Source of the DNA: Longimicrobium sp.
GTDB lineage: Bacteria; Gemmatimonadota; Gemmatimonadetes; Longimicrobiales; Longimicrobiaceae
DNA length: 24,310 nt
NCBI GenBank assembly: GCA_030446945.1
Contig: JAUJMI010000008.1
Coordinates: forward strand, 1 to 24,310
Reading direction: 5' to 3'
Within the stretch, counting starts at the first letter, position 1. Each line of letters begins with the position of its first letter. The position numbers were made by a program, and so were the translations under genes. The notes beneath the pieces were generated by a model. It saw nothing but the letters and a program-made list of their open reading frames with translations, was not told where the DNA came from and made no database searches. Shown here one piece after another: positions 5,485 through 23,379 of the stretch.

Positions 5485-7686
5485 ATGACCCTTCTGGCGA
5501 TCGGCGCCGCGCTTCTGATGCAGGTGCCCACGGGGCAGCCGCCCCGCGATACCCTGCGCCTCCCCTCGCCGCGTGACACGGTGCGCTTCGGCGTGCCCGC
5601 CGCGGCGCCGGCGCCCGCCCGCCCGGCGGAAGACTCGCTCGCCTTCGACTCCCCCGCCACGCGCGACCTGGTGGAGCGGGTGCACACGACGGTGGGGATC
5701 GTCCCCGCGGGGCTGGCCGACTACCGGGCGCAGCTCGAGTCCAGCGTCTACCTGTCGCTCCGCGCCGATTCGACGGCGGGCGGCGAGCTTCCGCTGACGG
5801 TGGACGAGTTCGCGGGTGAGCTGCGCTGGAAAAGGGACGGGGGGCTGGAGCAGCGCATCCGCGGACACCGCATCCGCCAGCTCGCGCCGACCCCGTACAC
5901 CATCGGCAGCTGGCTGGACGCCCCGTGGGTGGTGCCGCACCTGTACGGGAGCACGGTGGACGCGCTCCAGCTGTCGCCGAGCGCCAACCGGCGCACCACG
6001 ATGACGCGCGCGGTGCACCCCTTCTCCCTGCGCGGCCCCGAGTTCTACCGCTACACGGCGGAAGACACGGTGCGGGTGCGGACGCAGGAAGGGGTGACGA
6101 CGCTGGTGGCCGTGGCGGTGCGCCCGCGCGCGGAGGCACCGGGCGGCGGGCTGCGCCTGCTGGCCGGCACCTTTTACCTGGACGTGGATCGCGCCGCCAT
6201 CGCCCGCGCGCGCTTCGGCTTCACCGAGCGGCAGGGACGGCTCTCGCTGACGGAGGCAGGGCTCTACTTCGAGCTGGAGAACGCGCTGGTGGGCGGGAGC
6301 TACTGGCTTCCGGTGAGGCAGCGCCGCGAGATCCAGGTGAGCTCGCCCGTGCTGGGCGGGGCCACGGCGCTGCGGCTGGTGACCTCGCTCTCGCGCTTCG
6401 AGCTGAACACCGGGTGGCGCGCGGAGTCGCCGGGATCGCGGCTGGTGCGCGACCTGGCGCGGGGCGAGTCCGCCTTCGCCGGGTGGCGCGACCCCGCGCG
6501 GCGCGGCGAGGACGTGCTGCGCATCGGCGACTTCGCGGACCTGCGCGAGGCGATCCGCCCTCCGAGCCCCGATGCCGGCCCGCTGCGGCTGGGCTTCCGC
6601 GCCGAGCGGAGCAGCCACTTCTTCCGCTTCAACCGGGTGGAGGGGCTCTTCCTGGGCGCCGGCGCGCGCCTGGAGCCGCGCGACCCGTTGCGGCGCGAAT
6701 GGAGCCTGTACGGCACCGGCGGCTTCGCCTTCGCGGAGGGGACGGCGCGCGGCGAGCTCTCCGCCCGCTACCATCCGGTTCCGCGCACGGGGGCGCCGCA
6801 GTACACCGTCTCCGGCACCGGGTACCGGCGGCTGCGCGACACCCGCGTATTCCGCCCCGCCTTCGAGTGGGAGCTGGGCTACTCGCTGGGCGCGGCGTTC
6901 GGCGGCGCCGACCGGCGCGACTACTACGACGCGGCCGGCGGCGAGCTTTTCCTGGCGCGGCGGCGTGGCCCGCTCACGGCACGCATCGGCGCCCGCGGGG
7001 AGCGGCAGGATTCGGTGGCGCGCAACACCGAGAGCGGGCTTCTTTCCGGCGGAAGCTTCGGCCGGGTGGCCGCCTCCGAGCCCGGAACGCACACGGCGCT
7101 CGAAGGGGAGCTGCGCTACGCCCGCGGCGCCGGCGCTTTCGGCATCACCCCGTCTCTGGTGGCTTCGCTCTGGGCCGAGGCCGGAGTGGGCGACTTCACC
7201 ACGCAGCGGCTGACGGCCACGCTTGCCACGCGCCGCCCCGGCCGCTACGTCACCCTCATCGCCCGCGGCGACGCGGGGGTTGTGGCCGGCGAGGCGCCGC
7301 CGCAGTTCCTGATCCGCTTCGGCGGCGGCGAGGGGCTGCGCGGCTACGACGACCGTGAGTTCGCGGGCTCGACCGCCGCGCTGGCGCGGGGGCGTCTCCT
7401 CCTCCACCTCCCCCCATACGGCAACCGGCCTCTGTTCCGCAGCGGCATCTTCCTCTTCCCGCCCCTGCGCCCCGCCCTGGTCCTCTCCGGCGACGCCGGC
7501 TGGTCCGATATCTCCGACGAGGCGCGCCCCTCGCTGATCCGTCTCGGAGGCCGCACCACCGAGGGCACGCGCTACTCGCACGGCATCGGCATCAGCATCT
7601 TCGAGGACGCCGTTTCGGTCGAGCGCGTGTGGCCGGGCGAAGGTGGCGAGGCGAGGTGGTACGCTGGGTTTACGACGTGGTTCTGA
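5485..7686 (+). CDS. large outer-membrane beta-barrel protein (BamA/DUF5686-like C-terminus)
   Basis: The 733-residue product starts with a short hydrophobic segment (MTLLAIGAALLMQ) that could be a signal sequence, though it lacks the usual N-terminal Lys/Arg. Residues about 50-330 are a soluble region containing 'GTFYLDVDRAAIARARFGF' and 'YWLPVRQRREIQ', a pattern recalling Bacteroidota-type DUF5686 proteins. From about residue 370 to the end there are alternating amphipathic strands with aromatic ends, a 'GGGEGLRGYDDREF' motif like the RGY/F loop of the BamA/TamA (Omp85) superfamily, and a C-terminal Phe, as in barrels recognised by BamA. An outer-membrane location is likely; the substrate is unknown. 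No POTRA domain is obvious. No strong ribosome binding site is seen, and ATG 5485 is the only reasonable start. Confidence 0.78.
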   Translation: MTLLAIGAALLMQVPTGQPPRDTLRLPSPRDTVRFGVPAAAPAPARPAEDSLAFDSPATRDLVERVHTTVGIVPAGLADYRAQLESSVYLSLRADSTAGGELPLTVDEFAGELRWKRDGGLEQRIRGHRIRQLAPTPYTIGSWLDAPWVVPHLYGSTVDALQLSPSANRRTTMTRAVHPFSLRGPEFYRYTAEDTVRVRTQEGVTTLVAVAVRPRAEAPGGGLRLLAGTFYLDVDRAAIARARFGFTERQGRLSLTEAGLYFELENALVGGSYWLPVRQRREIQVSSPVLGGATALRLVTSLSRFELNTGWRAESPGSRLVRDLARGESAFAGWRDPARRGEDVLRIGDFADLREAIRPPSPDAGPLRLGFRAERSSHFFRFNRVEGLFLGAGARLEPRDPLRREWSLYGTGGFAFAEGTARGELSARYHPVPRTGAPQYTVSGTGYRRLRDTRVFRPAFEWELGYSLGAAFGGADRRDYYDAAGGELFLARRRGPLTARIGARGERQDSVARNTESGLLSGGSFGRVAASEPGTHTALEGELRYARGAGAFGITPSLVASLWAEAGVGDFTTQRLTATLATRRPGRYVTLIARGDAGVVAGEAPPQFLIRFGGGEGLRGYDDREFAGSTAALARGRLLLHLPPYGNRPLFRSGIFLFPPLRPALVLSGDAGWSDISDEARPSLIRLGGRTTEGTRYSHGIGISIFEDAVSVERVWPGEGGEARWYAGFTTWF

Positions 7687-9588: not shown

Positions 9589-9851
9589 GTCGCGTCGCGC
9601 TCGCTCCGCTGGCCTGCACCGCCGAACTCCTTCCTCAACCCAAGCTCGACCACCGATGGCGAATACACAAGGCGGGGCTGATATTCCGCCATCGATGTGA
9701 CGTTTCTATGCTCGACCGCGCCCCATCAGAGCGCCCGTAGAGCGTTTGGCGCCAGCGGTTCGCATATCGAAAAGAGGTGGTTGCGCGGGTGATTCTTTCC
9801 TTCATATTTGACCGTCCGAGCGCGTTCCGCAGATCAACCGGCAGGTGCGAG

Positions 9852-10172
9852 ATGGCGAAGACCGGGGTTGAGAACAGCGCCGCCATGGCGCCCGCTCCGG
9901 TGCTGCCGGGCGGCAAGCTTATCGACGTGTACGTCGTTCCAAAGGATGGGGCGTGGCTGGTGCGCGTGCGCGGGGGTGTCCGCAGCACGCACAAGACGCG
10001 GGATCAGGCGATCAACGCCGCGATGAAGATCGCTCACCAGACGGAGTGCAACGTCGTGGTCCGTGGCGAAGACGGGCGAATCAAGGAGCGGCTGTCCGGC
10101 GCGCTCGTGGACGCGATGATGCTGAAGATGTGGAAGCGCCTGTACGCACGGCACCAGCGGGGGGAGATCTGA
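9852..10172 (+). CDS. DUF2188 domain protein, candidate antitoxin
   Basis: This 106-residue protein carries a C-terminal DUF2188-like domain: a strand with 'VYVVPKDGAWLVRVRG' (about 26-41), a helix with 'THKTRDQAINAAMKIAHQTE' (45-64), and 'NVVVRGEDGRIKERL' (66-80). This beta-beta-alpha-beta layout with 'hGkDGrI-x-er' is the family hallmark. The last 25 residues are basic and helical. I prefer ATG 9852 over the frame opening at 9777, which adds a non-family tail. The stop lies 13 nt before the PIN-domain gene, so the two are almost certainly cotranscribed. By analogy with VapBC loci, the upstream small gene would be the antitoxin; that is inference, as DUF2188 is not an established VapC partner. 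Confidence 0.78.
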   Translation: MAKTGVENSAAMAPAPVLPGGKLIDVYVVPKDGAWLVRVRGGVRSTHKTRDQAINAAMKIAHQTECNVVVRGEDGRIKERLSGALVDAMMLKMWKRLYARHQRGEI

Positions 10173-10185
10173 CGCGGATGAACCG

Positions 10186-10617
10186 GTGCGCCGCGTGACC
10201 TACGACACCAACGTTATGATCCGATACCGCCCGGCGACCTTCCCCGCCGGGTTTTTTATGTCTGCCGTCGTAAGACAGGAACTGACTGCAGGCGCAAAAG
10301 ACGCGGCAGAGGTCCGCGAATTCGAGCAGTTCCGAAAGGAGTACGAAGCCATGGATCGCCTGCTCGTGCCTTCGGGCGAGGACTGGTGGCTCGCCGGGAA
10401 GGTGCTGAACTCGCTGCATCGCGGGCTCAGGTCCCACAAACGGGGGCAGATCACGGCCATTTCAAAGGGAGAGCAGCAACGCATCCTGCGTGACGTGCTC
10501 ATCGCGCTGACCGCGCGGCGAGCGGGCGCCGCCGTCGTCACGGAGAACGTCTCGGACTTCGAGAAGATCCGGGACTTCTGCAATGTCAGGATCGTGCGGC
10601 CCGCCCAGTTCCTCTGA
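10186..10617 (+). CDS. PIN-domain protein, VapC-like RNase toxin candidate
   Basis: PIN-domain toxins are Mg-dependent RNases that cut tRNA or rRNA. The 143-residue frame begins at GTG 10186 (GTG 10195 is an equally possible start). The acidic active-site residues are all present: D7 in 'YDTNV', E32 in 'VVRQEL', D103 in 'LRDVLIALTARR', and D124 in 'VVTENVSDFEKI'. Length fits VapC. It sits 13 nt behind the DUF2188 gene. Unusually, codons 15-24 contain a GC hairpin followed by six T (10230-10257), the layout of an intrinsic terminator. The 3' end overlaps an antisense hypothetical gene. Confidence 0.85.
   Translation: MRRVTYDTNVMIRYRPATFPAGFFMSAVVRQELTAGAKDAAEVREFEQFRKEYEAMDRLLVPSGEDWWLAGKVLNSLHRGLRSHKRGQITAISKGEQQRILRDVLIALTARRAGAAVVTENVSDFEKIRDFCNVRIVRPAQFL
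10230..10257 (+). terminator. intrinsic-terminator-like hairpin inside the PIN gene
   Basis: CCCGGCG (10230-10236) pairs with CGCCGGG (10245-10251) around an 8-nt loop and is followed directly by TTTTTT (10252-10257). It lies 44-71 nt downstream of the PIN start codon, in coding DNA (codons for P-A-T-F-P-A-G-F-F). It could attenuate readthrough from the antitoxin-like gene into the toxin gene. Confidence 0.55.
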
Positions 10618-12022: not shown

Positions 12023-13336
12023 CTATTCCGCCTGATTTTCGCCCTCCCGCGCCCGGACGAGCGCGGCAAAGGAGCGCATGCGCAGCTCGGCGGAGGTGAG
12101 ACCGGTGCGGGCGAGCGCGTCCTCCAGGGCGAGCGCGCCGCAGCCCACGGCGCGGAGGAAAAAGTTGAGGAGTCCCTGCCCTGTCGCCGCGTCGTCGAAG
12201 GCGCTGCCGACGCGGGTGGCACGCGCGGCGCGCTCCACGAAGTTGCGGAGGCGCTCGCCGGCGGCATCCACGCCTTCCAGGAAGAAGCCGTACACCGCCG
12301 CGTAGCGCGAAACCAGCTGGGCCGGATGCAGGTCCCACCCCTGGTAGAAGCCGGACGCCAGTCCGTGCCTCACGTTGTCGTGGTGCACGCGCCACCCGCG
12401 GTGAACCGCCCGGCGGTTCTCCGCCGCCTGCTCACCGGTCAGTTCGCCGCGATGCGGGGCGATGGGGAGGAGCGTCGTGGCGCCGTCCGACCATCGCACG
12501 CCGCTGCCCGCGAGCGCCACCTGCATGGCGTGGCGCGCCCAGTCGCACGCGGGGTGGCGGAGGTGCTGGTGGGCGGCCGTGATCCCCAGCGCGGCCGTGT
12601 AGTCGTACGCGCCGAAGTGCGCGGCCACCACCCGCCCCCGCGCCGCGCGCACCAGACCCGGGAGCGCCGCCCGCCCCTCGCCGTCGAACAGCGCCTCAGG
12701 CGTCTCCACCATCAGCTCCATGCGGAGCGTCCCCGCCGCCACGCCGTGCTCCGCTTCCAGCCGGTCCAGAAGGAGCGCCAGCAGCTCCGTTTGCTCCGGC
12801 ACCGTCACCTTGGGAAGGGTTACGAGGAACTCCGGCGGCAGCACGCCGCCCGTGGCGCGCAGGAGCGTGTCCGCGAAGCGGTGCAGCGTGCGGGCGGCGC
12901 GGGTGCGCGTCTCGGCGGTCAGCGCCTTGACGCGGATGCCGATGAAGGGCGGGAGCGTGCCCTCCGCCATGCCGCGCGCGACTTCGCGGGCCGCGGATTC
13001 GGCGTGGGCGTCTTCCTCGGCGTCAGGTCGCGCGCCGTAGCCGTCCTCGAAGTCGATGCGGAAGTCTTCCACCGGCTCTCGGAGCAGCTTGGCGCTTACC
13101 CGTTCCCACACCGCCTCCGTGTCCCTCCCCAGCGCCTGCGCGAGGGTGGCCGCGTCCGGCGCGTAGCGGTCGAGCGCCTCCAGTGCGTGTGTGCCCAACC
13201 GTGGCGCCGTGTCCGCGCGGAAGAGGTGCGCTCCGCCATACAGGGTGTGCACGGGCTGGCGCTCCGCACCCTCGCCCGTGCGTGCGCGTGCCAGCGCGCG
13301 GGTCAGCCTCTCCTCGGCGTCTTCGAGATCGGACAT
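12023..13336 (-). CDS. DUF6986 aldolase/citrate-lyase-like protein
   Basis: This 437-residue protein matches, by recalled motif order, the DUF6986 family of HpcH/HpaI-related TIM barrels, often labelled aldolase/citrate lyase or phosphoenolpyruvate-utilising. Diagnostic segments in order are 'QPVHTLYGGAHLF', 'EDFRIDFEDGYGARPDAEED', 'FLVTLPKVTVPEQ', 'RMELMVETPEALF' (a Glu in the usual metal-ligand position), 'AAHFGAYDYTAALGI' (Asp ligand), 'SDGATTLLPI', and 'YQGWDLHPAQLVSRYAA'. The substrate is unknown; homologues in actinobacteria lie near purine or ureide catabolism genes, but no such genes are here. I prefer ATG 13336: a TATAAT at 13404-13409 would put transcription start too close to the alternative start at 13390. 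Confidence 0.82.
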   Translation of the reverse strand: MSDLEDAEERLTRALARARTGEGAERQPVHTLYGGAHLFRADTAPRLGTHALEALDRYAPDAATLAQALGRDTEAVWERVSAKLLREPVEDFRIDFEDGYGARPDAEEDAHAESAAREVARGMAEGTLPPFIGIRVKALTAETRTRAARTLHRFADTLLRATGGVLPPEFLVTLPKVTVPEQTELLALLLDRLEAEHGVAAGTLRMELMVETPEALFDGEGRAALPGLVRAARGRVVAAHFGAYDYTAALGITAAHQHLRHPACDWARHAMQVALAGSGVRWSDGATTLLPIAPHRGELTGEQAAENRRAVHRGWRVHHDNVRHGLASGFYQGWDLHPAQLVSRYAAVYGFFLEGVDAAGERLRNFVERAARATRVGSAFDDAATGQGLLNFFLRAVGCGALALEDALARTGLTSAELRMRSFAALVRAREGENQAE

Positions 13337-13403
13337 CGGGTTGGTGGATGGGCACCGCCGGCCGGCGCCCCCGCGCGCGAACCGTTCCATGCCGTTGCGG
13401 GGT

Positions 13404-21245: not shown

Positions 21246-21261
21246 GGGATCGAACGGCGGG

Positions 21262-21449
21262 TCTCACGCGGAGGCGCGGAGAGAACCGCAACTGCGTGGC
21301 TCACACAGAGGCACAGAGACACGGAGGAAAGCCGACGAAGGTTTTTCTCCGCGCCTCCGCCTCTCCGCGTGAGCCCTGCGGTTCGGGTACTGAGAGAACA
21401 CCGAGACGAGCGGGAAGGTCTTCTCTCTGCCTCCGTGTCTCTGTCTGAG
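21262..21449. repeat. intergenic inverted-repeat element, copy 2 (longer, nested)
   Basis: Two inverted repeats interleave. The outer-left arm, TCTCACGCGGAGGCGCGGAG (from 21262), pairs with 21346-21373, which has an 8-nt extra unit. The arm at 21302-21327 (CACAGAGGCACAGAGACACG core) pairs with 21422-21449. The units match those of the element at 4084-4170. It again separates convergent genes (the ABC exporter and the gene at 21519-22022). Confidence 0.75.
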
Positions 21450-21480
21450 GTTGCCGTAATCTCAAGCGGTTGGATAGCGA

Positions 21481-21518
21481 GGAGGCGCGGAGAAGATCTC
21501 TCCGCGCCTCCTTCTTTG
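21481..21518. terminator. 13-bp hairpin, probable bidirectional terminator
   Basis: GGAGGCGCGGAGA (21481-21493) pairs exactly with TCTCCGCGCCTCC (21499-21511) around a 5-nt loop, followed on the plus strand by TTCTTTGT. It lies right beside the stop of the convergent minus-strand gene. The stem uses the same GGAGGCGCGGAG unit as the repeat element upstream. Confidence 0.75.
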
Positions 21519-22022
21519 TCAGGACTTCTGGCCGCGCCCGCCGCCGCCGCGGCCGGGACCCTTGGACGGGCCGCGCGCCGGGCCCTTGAAGGGCGGCTTG
21601 CCGGGGCCGCGGCGAGGCTTTGACTCGCGGGGGGCCTCGTCGTCGTCGCGGTCGCGGGAGCGGGGAGGGGCGCCGCGAGTGCCGCCGCGCGGGCCGCCGC
21701 CGGTGCGGCCGGCCGAGCCACCGCGGGTGCCGTAGCCGGGGCCTGAACGCTCGGACGGGCCGGAGCGCTCGCGCGTGGCCGTGCTCGGGCGCGCGCGCGG
21801 GGCGGGACGATCCTCCTCGGCGCGCTCCATCCCCTGGGCGATGCGCTGGAGCTGGCGGGCCTGGCTCAGAAGCGCGCGGCCCTGCTCTTCCAGCGCGTCC
21901 GCCATCTCCAGCAGGTCCTCGGAACGCGAGCCGCGGGCGCGCGAGGGCGCGCGGAATCCTCCGTCTTCAGCATCGTTATCGGCAGCGCGGCCGGGCGGGC
22001 CGCGGCGCGTGGGTTGTCTCAT
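21519..22022 (-). CDS. Arg/Gly/Pro-rich protein with short helical core
   Basis: A 167-residue protein without a known family. Residues about 33-72 ('SEDLLEMADALEEQGRALLS', then 'QARQLQRIAQGMERAEED') form one charged amphipathic helix or coiled coil. The rest is a disordered tail rich in Arg, Gly, Pro and Lys with RGG-like triplets, typical of nucleic-acid-binding tails. ATG 22022 has GAGGA a few bases upstream, and the gene ends next to a terminator hairpin, which supports it as real despite low complexity. An RNA- or DNA-associated role is a guess from composition only. Confidence 0.6.
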   Translation of the reverse strand: MRQPTRRGPPGRAADNDAEDGGFRAPSRARGSRSEDLLEMADALEEQGRALLSQARQLQRIAQGMERAEEDRPAPRARPSTATRERSGPSERSGPGYGTRGGSAGRTGGGPRGGTRGAPPRSRDRDDDEAPRESKPRRGPGKPPFKGPARGPSKGPGRGGGGRGQKS

Positions 22023-22149: not shown

Positions 22150-22600
22150 TCAGGACCAGGGCTCGTCGGTCGCGGGGCCGTAAATGGAGGGGACCGGCAC
22201 GTCCAGCAGCCGCAGGTACAGGCTGAGCTGCCCGCGGTGGTGCACCAGGTGACTCACCACCGTCCCGCGCAGCACCCCGATGTGCGGCGCGGTGAAGACG
22301 ACGCGCTCCCCGGCGCGCAGGCTCCGCGGCTCCCGCAGCGACAGGTCGTCCGCGTCCTCCAGCAGCGCGCGAAGGCGGCCACCGTCTCGTCGAAGCGGCG
22401 CAGGACCTCGTCGCGGCTCGTCGCGATCCGGTTGGGCGGCAGCGGGGCGGCGACGTCGAAGTCCTGGCCCTGCAGCACCGCCGTCCCGTAGAACGGGATC
22501 GTCGCGACGTGCGTGGCGAGGCCGCCCAGCAAACATCGACCTGGCGTGCGGCTTCCAGTCGAGTCGTCGGTCACGGCGGGACTTCGAAGGCGAGTTGGAA
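22150..22600 (-). pseudogene. DinB/YfiT-like protein, multiply frameshifted
   Basis: DinB-like proteins are four-helix metal-dependent hydrolase or thiol-transferase folds. Family pieces appear in order but in changing frames: 'LAFEVPP' (about 22590), 'LDWKPHARSM' (22562-22534), then after an extra base 'LGGLATHVATIPFYGTAVLQ' (from 22529), 'RDEVLRRFDETVAA', then after another shift near 22365-22380 'ALLEDADDL', 'HIGVLRGTVVSHLVHHRGQL' (with the metal-ligand HxxHHR motif) and 'VPSIYGPATDEPW' to the stop at 22150. At least three frame changes within 450 bp and a missing N-terminus make this a dead gene. Confidence 0.8.
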
Positions 22601-22604
22601 AAGG

Positions 22605-22632
22605 AAAGGCGGCCCCGGGGGACCGCCTTTTC
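22605..22632 (-). terminator. terminator of the Cys-rich peptide gene
   Basis: AAAGGCGG (22605-22612) pairs with CCGCCTTT (22623-22630), with a GC-rich inner part. On the minus strand the stem is followed by TTTCCTTTT. It lies 24 nt after the stop of the 28-aa gene. Confidence 0.7.
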
Positions 22633-22656
22633 AGATGCAGCAACGAAGCGCGCGGC

Positions 22657-22743
22657 TCAGCAGCAGCACTTCTCCCTGCAGCAGTCGCAGCTCTCGCAGC
22701 ACGCGGTGCAGTCGCAGTCCGGACAGTCGCACTTGACGTTCAT
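22657..22743 (-). CDS. 28-aa cysteine-rich peptide, metallothionein-like
   Basis: The frame from ATG 22743 to TGA 22657-22659 encodes 28 residues with Cys at 5, 7, 10, 12, 15, 16, 19, 21, 22, 26, 27 and 28: 12 of 28. The N-terminal part is 'MNVKCDCPDCDC' and the C-terminal part 'CREKCCC'. Spacing is C-x-C and C-C pairs separated by two or three residues, with Asp, Glu, Lys and Ser between and no aromatic residues, as in short metallothioneins. GGAGG sits four bases before the ATG. TTGACC (22810-22815) and TACCGT (22787-22792) with a 17-bp spacer form a plausible promoter, and a terminator follows. A role in binding Zn, Cu or Cd, or metal delivery, is inference. It follows the MOSC gene by 93 nt. 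It is not a SmtA/BmtA homologue, which are about 55 residues with His. Confidence 0.7.
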   Translation of the reverse strand: MNVKCDCPDCDCTACCESCDCCREKCCC

Positions 22744-22786
22744 GGGGCCTCCAAACTGTGGATGAAGTTGAATCCGTTCGTATGTG

Positions 22787-22815
22787 ACGGTAAGCTAGAT
22801 GAAGCTTCGGGTCAA
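22787..22815 (-). promoter_or_regulatory. candidate sigma70-type promoter of the Cys-rich gene
   Basis: On the minus strand, TTGACC (22815-22810) matches five of six -35 positions. After exactly 17 bp, TACCGT (22792-22787) matches three of six -10 positions. Transcription would start near 22780, giving a leader of about 37 nt with GGAGG before the ATG. Confidence 0.4.
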
Positions 22816-22836: not shown

Positions 22837-23379
22837 TCACACCGGCGCGAGCGGATGATGGGGCGCGCGCGGAAGCTCCACGCGCACCGGGTCGCCCGGG
22901 CGCACCTCGCCGTCCGCGACGACCACGCCCATGATGCCCGCCTTGCGCACCAGGTTCCCCTCGGCGTCATGGCCGAGGACGGCGGACATGAGGCCGGGCT
23001 GGAAGCGGTCGAGCTGCCTGCACGGGTTGCGCAGGCCGGTGACCTCCACCACCGCATCGCCGCCCAGGTACAGGCGCGTTCCCACCGGGAGCGCCAGCAG
23101 GTCGACTCCGCGCGTGGTGACGTTCTCGCCCATCTCCCCCGGCGCCACGGTGAAGCCGGCCACCCGCAGCTCGTCGTGCAGCTCGGCGTGGATCAGGTGC
23201 ACCTGGCGCAGGTTGGGCTGCGTGGGGTCGCGGGCCACGCGCGAGAGGTGCTGCACGGTGACCCCCAGGTGCGCGTCTCCCTCCACGCCCAGCCCGGCCA
23301 GGAGACGGATGCGCTCCCGGTTCGCCTTGCCGAAGGAGTGCTCCGGGCTGAGGCTGACCGCCGCGACGGTGCCGGTCAT
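22837..23379 (-). CDS. MOSC-domain protein
   Basis: MOSC domains, related to the C-terminus of molybdenum cofactor sulfurase, handle sulfur and molybdenum cofactor chemistry and carry a conserved Cys. The 180-residue stand-alone protein has 'LLAGLGVEGDAHLG' (26-39), 'GEMGENVTTRGVDL' (81-94), 'LPVGTRLYLG' and the key 'GLRNPCRQLDRF' with Cys 120. Its length suits the single-domain YiiM-like class. The start at 23379 lies 4 nt after the DUF2059 stop, so translation is probably coupled; no separate strong ribosome binding site is visible. The Cys-rich peptide gene follows downstream. Confidence 0.92.
   Translation of the reverse strand: MTGTVAAVSLSPEHSFGKANRERIRLLAGLGVEGDAHLGVTVQHLSRVARDPTQPNLRQVHLIHAELHDELRVAGFTVAPGEMGENVTTRGVDLLALPVGTRLYLGGDAVVEVTGLRNPCRQLDRFQPGLMSAVLGHDAEGNLVRKAGIMGVVVADGEVRPGDPVRVELPRAPHHPLAPV

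Follow-up and report, generated by a model that had tools for sequence, protein, structure and literature searches.

A conserved 28-codon cysteine-rich gene in Longimicrobium, probably encoding a minimal metallothionein-like peptide

The 28-codon frame and its neighbors

The window analyzed here, a single stretch of 24,310 nucleotides from Longimicrobium sp., contains a 28-codon gene (87 nt including the stop) on its (-) strand at 22657..22743, which encodes MNVKCDCPDCDCTACCESCDCCREKCCC. From 22743 down to 22657, this gene reads ATG AAC GTC AAG TGC ... TGC TGA, and the (+) strand over the same positions translates as SAAALLPAAV.... Cysteines account for 12 of the 28 residues, namely those at positions 5, 7, 10, 12, 15, 16, 19, 21, 22, 26, 27, and 28; only four residues precede the first of them, and the peptide contains no His, no aromatic residue, and no Leu or Ile. 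An earlier, sequence-only reading of this DNA had noted a 28-residue frame with 12 Cys at these positions; its coordinates and its Cys count were right, and the strand, which it left unstated, is (-). The Cys codons (11 TGC and one TGT) are interleaved with other codons, so the frame does not have the look of a trinucleotide expansion. A frame with 12 Cys is, moreover, far beyond chance: across 200 dinucleotide shuffles of the window, the maximum Cys count per stop-free 28-residue stretch stayed below 8 in 199 and reached 8 in one. Just one other stretch of the real window, of a Cys/Arg/Pro type with 8 Cys, comes to at least 8. Common gene finders apply a 90-nt floor, and the 87-nt gene falls just below this usual limit, in line with the earlier suggestion that gene callers would miss it.

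Directly upstream of the peptide gene lies a MOSC-domain gene (22837..23379, (-) strand), a syntenic neighbor that we do not consider to be part of the unit, and downstream lies a DinB-superfamily gene (22150..22643, (-) strand). The peptide gene was found in 4 of the 10 genomes of the genus that were searched, namely the window's own (G000), G004, G005, and G006; one of the six genomes lacking it has a completeness of 76%. The window, G005, and G006 share one arrangement, in which MFS is followed by the ABC exporter, a low-complexity RPR-type gene, DinB, the peptide gene, MOSC, and DUF2059; G005 and G006 have extra small genes inserted between the ABC exporter and the RPR-type gene. The G004 locus differs: the immediate neighbors of the peptide gene are the RPR-type gene on one side, where the contig ends, and MOSC-DUF2059 on the other, and DinB was not found within the stretch read. 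G005 and G006 have an intact DinB-superfamily gene; in the window, its sequence is spread over two frames and has a divergent start, which points to gene decay or to an error in the assembly.

The sequence-only reading had taken the MOSC neighbor as a hint of metal or sulfur biology. Among 11 MOSC loci (one per genome with a match at E 1e-20, with at most 700 nt scanned and two further partial matches left out), the peptide gene follows MOSC in four and is absent in seven (G003, G007, G008, G009, G013, G018, and G020). MOSC is therefore a neighbor rather than functional evidence and says little about what the peptide does. The peptide gene also has a conserved promoter of its own. No recognized metal genes were found beside this first copy. 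The MOSC tree resolves only the grouping of G000, G005, and G006, with which a single gain of the peptide gene and several losses are both compatible.

Elsewhere in the window, a short repeat (type CTCCGCGCCTC / GAGGCGCGGAG) occurs several times, in either orientation, within the intergenic stretch 21260-21520, and similar motifs occur near the same genes in the stretches L014 and L015. At 9777-10617 on the (+) strand, a DUF2188 gene and, 13 nt further on, a 143-aa gene that matches no Pfam model form a toxin-antitoxin-like arrangement; by eye, the 143-aa product has the look of a PIN-type nuclease. A DUF6986 protein (540 bits) with weak similarity to HpcH/HpaI aldolases is encoded at 12023-13390 on the (-) strand.

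Conservation and expression signals of the five copies

The four genomes together carry five copies. G005 and G006 encode MNVKCDCPDCDCTECCESCDCCKEKCCG, with 11 Cys in the G005 form; the G004 copy beside MOSC encodes MSMKCDCPDCDCTECCESCDCCKEKCCC; and a second, diverged G004 copy encodes MNNKCDCPDCGCGDCCGDECCCTEKCCG, which is 64% identical to the window peptide. All five copies are exactly 28 codons long, with ATG, length, and stop kept, and each has 11 or 12 Cys. Ten Cys columns are invariant, an 11th is displaced by one residue in the second G004 copy, and the 12th column, the C-terminal position, has Cys in two copies and Gly in three. Among the non-Cys residues, Lys4, Asp6, Pro8, Asp9, Glu24, and Lys25 are kept. 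The sequence-only reading had held that a lack of conservation in relatives would speak against a gene; instead, the frame, its length, and its Cys spacing are kept in three further species of the genus.

At the DNA level, the frame is 94% (G005), 97% (G006), and 91% (G004) identical to that of the window, versus 64%, 68%, and 58%, respectively, over the 140 nt before it and 68%, 68%, and 53% over the 120 nt after it. The second G004 copy is 75% identical in the frame and 40% and 47% identical in the flanks before and after. Among the orthologs, per-site differences range from 0.00 to 0.08 (pN) and from 0.00 to 0.22 (pS), which correspond to 0 to 2.5 synonymous and 0 to 5.5 nonsynonymous differences, a thin basis at synonymous sites. 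Because these synonymous counts are small, and because all changes between G000 and G006 are nonsynonymous (three, with no synonymous change), it is the contrast between frame and flanks that carries the coding argument. A spurious frame in conserved noncoding DNA would be compatible with the shortness of 28 codons and the few synonymous changes; however, start, length, stop, and at least 11 Cys persist in five copies while the flanks decay, and the second copy retains the pattern at its lower DNA identity, which leaves this explanation extremely improbable. On this comparative evidence, the frame is a real, conserved gene.

The putative expression signals point in the same direction. The ribosome-binding site GGAGG at 22748..22752 on the (-) strand, which the sequence-only reading had also seen, lies 4 nt before the ATG, and a stretch pairing with the 16S tail precedes the ATG in all five copies (-6.2 to -10.7 kcal/mol, with an assumed tail sequence). 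A candidate -35 element, TTGACC (22810..22815, (-) strand), is identical in the five copies, and a -10 element, TACCGT (22787..22792, (-) strand), follows after a 17-nt spacer and lies 43 nt before the ATG, with TAnnnT present in every copy and the whole pattern ending 40-43 nt before the ATG. Beyond the stop codon, the window has an 11-pair, terminator-like hairpin (22605..22630, (-) strand) whose T tail is weak; each of the five copies retains such a hairpin, of 11 to 13 pairs (-18.9 to -23.7 kcal/mol). Both a 17-bp-spaced promoter candidate and a terminator 24 nt after the stop had been proposed. The promoter candidate is present and kept throughout, although its -10 element matches only 3 of 6 consensus bases and a generic scan does not call it; the hairpin is strong, although its distance is 26 nt and its T tail weak. 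The generic scan of the window returned no promoters and no terminators, because the -10 element and the T tail are weak, and we judged the signals by agreement among the five copies instead. Within 168,422 strand-bases (the window and L014-L017), TTGACC-17-TAnnnT occurs five times, once per copy, and a looser TTGACn form eight times; the pattern was defined after the copies had been seen, so that this count is a description and not a test. The peptide gene thus looks like a self-contained transcription unit with its own promoter, ribosome site, and terminator-like hairpin. Transcription would start from the TTGACC-17-TAnnnT promoter just after the MOSC gene, giving a 5' leader of probably ∼35 nt; translation would start from the GGAGG site, and the hairpin would end the transcript.

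A hairpin that follows the frame makes one alternative the most serious, namely that the frame is a Cys-rich leader peptide, at whose Cys codons ribosomes sense the cysteine supply, with the hairpin as an attenuator for the next gene. Polycysteine leader frames have been described in mycobacteria, and several features would suit such a role: (i) the Cys codons are many, and the frame ends in CCC; (ii) the hairpin is close behind the stop, and same-strand genes lie downstream; (iii) thiol transferases are among the relatives of DinB (the G005 gene matches PF04978); and (iv) in the consensus fold of the five copies, a weak helix pairs the ribosome site with a stretch 3' of the hairpin, with two-sided changes in 2 of its 5 pairs, but with 3 of the 5 broken in at least one copy. 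The downstream gene, however, varies from copy to copy: G005 and G006 have an intact DinB gene, the window has one spread over two frames, none was found in the stretch read in G004, and a cupin frame lies downstream of the second copy; together with the retention of the six non-Cys residues and the exact length, this variation leads us to disfavor a leader. Moreover, the consensus fold keeps the hairpin separate from the frame, and nearly all of the 12 hairpin pairs are kept without two-sided changes. Such changes affect 4 of the 45 pairs of that fold; its covariation term (0.56) adds no stability, and folded as a single sequence, the RNA of the unit does not exceed the strength of shuffles (z -0.69). 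We therefore regard a leader as unlikely and an independent peptide gene as the favored reading. An antiterminator in competition with the hairpin is not apparent in this consensus fold.

The second copy and the reach of the family

The start of the second G004 copy (contig C25, stretch L017) overlaps, as ATGA, the last codon of a frame for a flavin-dependent oxidoreductase; the copy is on the same strand as, and follows, arsR, tonB, and the flavin monooxygenase; a CDF cation-efflux gene is divergent from the regulator. The regulator scored 89.7 bits with the NCBIfam ArsR/SmtB model (cut-off of 55) and 67 bits with CmtR, below the cut-off of 150. The short CDF gene scored 54.7 versus 26.6 in Pfam and 59.7 with the NCBIfam CDF model, below the cut-off of 82.35, and the best NCBIfam models for the flavoprotein, MSMEG_0569 and ArsO, both remained below their cut-offs. 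No inverted repeat of at least 8 that could serve as an operator was found in five stretches, namely the gap between arsR and CDF and the promoters of four of the five peptide copies. The row itself (L017:3271-6911, divergent from the CDF exporter at 7004-7606) may be of interest in itself for its pairing of a TonB receptor with an ArsR/SmtB-type regulator.

Relatives of the regulator at E 1e-15 or better occur in seven other family genomes (8 of 21 including G004). In six of these seven stretches (G013 left out), TonB is present in five, CDF in two, and a flavoprotein match in two, with the flavoprotein adjoining the regulator in G009 only. None of these six genomes has a credible peptide copy near its arsR relative, the densest frame having 7 Cys in 30 residues. 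Since the regulator-TonB module exists in relatives without the peptide copy, the peptide gene seems to have entered an older metal-type module in G004. The ArsR/CDF setting of this copy is the best evidence for metal handling, and it bears on a further alternative, in which the peptide is a redox or zinc-chaperone peptide whose Cys serve as a thiol buffer rather than for metal storage. The sequence permits this, and metallothioneins can also scavenge oxidants according to a passage of PMC7387436; by itself, however, a thiol buffer does not explain why a copy should stand beside ArsR and CDF genes, and we consider it very unlikely.

The neighboring genes also bear on whether the peptide is a RiPP precursor, with its Cys crosslinked by enzymes instead of being used for metals. 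Short, Cys-dense peptides occur among RiPPs, six-Cys precursors of another phylum that might bind metals are discussed in a part of PMC8692599, and the window encodes two transporters, one MsbA-like ABC exporter and one of the MFS type, no more than 5 kb away. However, the peptide has no leader region, its first Cys coming after four residues, and no radical SAM, YcaO, or lanthionine-synthase domain was found among those neighboring frames that were scanned in the window, L014, L016, and L017. With no typical modifying enzyme among these scanned neighbors, we consider a RiPP precursor very unlikely as well and retain the metallothionein-like reading.

No Pfam or NCBIfam model matches the peptide. 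At E up to 10, the metallothionein family PF02069 matched none of four peptides, and it was likewise not found in any of 200 phylum genomes, the window's own included, with Synechococcus elongatus as a positive control; sequences this short and biased are, however, treated severely by the HMMER filters. No PDB chain matched at E up to 10 in a profile search, or by sequence, and Rfam found nothing in the window at gathering scores. A profile search of 395 phylum genomes at E up to 0.1 returned G000, G005, G006, and G338, missed G004, and gave nothing credible from beyond the genus. Queried with the second copy, 295 class genomes yielded G005, G006, and a weak G284 match, but not the window's own copy at E 0.1; with the first copy, 61 relatives yielded the four bearers and a weak G057 match, the second copy being found only at E 0.04. 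These genome sets overlap, and the near misses between the two known copies imply that other diverged copies may be overlooked. Weak matches (E 0.049 to 0.69) were not accepted, those in G017 and G338 lying inside frames of 332 and 642 residues, and those in G057 and G284 having been inspected coarsely only.

Plasmids gave no relative, viral contigs gave 63 pattern-matching stretches and no relative, and genome contigs gave 441 such stretches with one relative, AVDCRST_MAG68 (an uncultured Gemmatimonadetes bacterium, identical to G004). Protein clusters covering ∼5.8 billion predicted proteins held no candidate, although a 28-aa frame may well be missing from such a set. Among the titles and abstract beginnings of the matches listed in the literature search, no metallothionein was described from the phylum Gemmatimonadota, and no paper joined "metallothionein" with "Longimicrobium". 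None of the protein sets and papers searched yielded the peptide gene. As far as found, and with searches that can miss divergent copies, the family appears to be restricted to the genus.

A probable metallothionein-like peptide and its relation to known systems

All five copies show the features of a broad description of metallothioneins, i.e., 28 aa with 11-12 Cys, C-x-C and C-C motifs, and no aromatic residue. We conclude that the locus is a real, self-contained gene, the 28-residue product of which is probably a minimal metallothionein-like protein. The best reading of the comparative data is a lineage-restricted minimal metallothionein, separate from SmtA/BmtA and not a member of PF02069. 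The sequence-only reading, which had suggested a hidden gene of a class other than SmtA/BmtA, is thus favored by the conserved and independent gene, the lack of a PF02069 match and of His, and the ArsR/CDF-linked second copy.

Without aromatic residues, His, Leu, or Ile, the peptide should have no fold of its own in the absence of metal, and by its composition, it could hardly act other than through its thiols. Its Cys, arranged in C-x-C, C-C, and C-x-x-C steps, would wrap several d10 ions in one thiolate cluster. The α domain of vertebrate metallothioneins holds four divalent ions, and 11 Cys in 27 residues equal the Cys number of that domain. SmtA, which is longer and contains His, holds four Zn according to a passage of PMC10612145. 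From these two parallels, we infer a capacity per peptide of about four divalent ions (Zn(II) or Cd(II)) or of six to eight Cu(I). Its composition and the ArsR/CDF setting of the second copy suggest a likely cytosolic role in buffering or sequestering Zn, Cd, or Cu. The gene is predicted to be transcribed and translated, and the peptide to bind metal. We further lean toward a family that arose independently of SmtA/BmtA and consists of one bare cluster unit of 11-12 Cys, encoded by a ∼200-nt cassette that moves or duplicates with its own promoter and terminator, and that in one genome joined an arsR-tonB-flavoprotein row.

If this reading is true, the peptide would be, as far as searched, the first metallothionein recognized in its phylum and probably the shortest bacterial one. 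Bacterial metallothioneins may be undercounted, because such genes are too short for gene calling and too small for profile searches. A natural 28-residue peptide is accessible by chemical synthesis, so that its metal stoichiometry is directly testable, and it would offer bioinorganic work a minimal natural cluster of 11-12 Cys.

Among the known systems, SmtA, BmtA, and PmtA (PF02069) are likewise small and Cys-rich; they have about 50-80 residues with about 9-10 Cys, whereas the peptides here have 28 residues with 11-12 Cys, no PF02069 match, and in none of the five copies a His that could correspond to the His ligand(s) of that family. SmtA has an N-terminal K-C-x-C-x-x-C-x-C block, as does the peptide described here, in which C-x-C-x-x-C-x-C is formed by Cys5, Cys7, Cys10, and Cys12 in all five copies. 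Cyanobacterial smtA adjoins the repressor gene smtB, as stated in a passage of PMC7387436. The second peptide copy similarly follows an ArsR/SmtB-type regulator.

Another short, Cys-rich bacterial protein outside PF02069 is MymT, with about 50 residues. It is named in a part of PMC7387436 as the mycobacterial copper metallothionein. It is longer than the 28-residue peptide and comes from another lineage. The polycysteine leaders of mycobacteria share with our gene a short frame dense in Cys codons, here with a hairpin after it, whereas the peptide gene has no constant downstream gene, conserved non-Cys residues, and a promoter of its own. The vertebrate α domain, finally, has 11 Cys in about 30 residues that form an M4Cys11 cluster, and short fungal metallothioneins are free-standing, very short chains. 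Neither has detectable homology to the peptide (no matching PDB chain); here, one such unit would be the whole protein.
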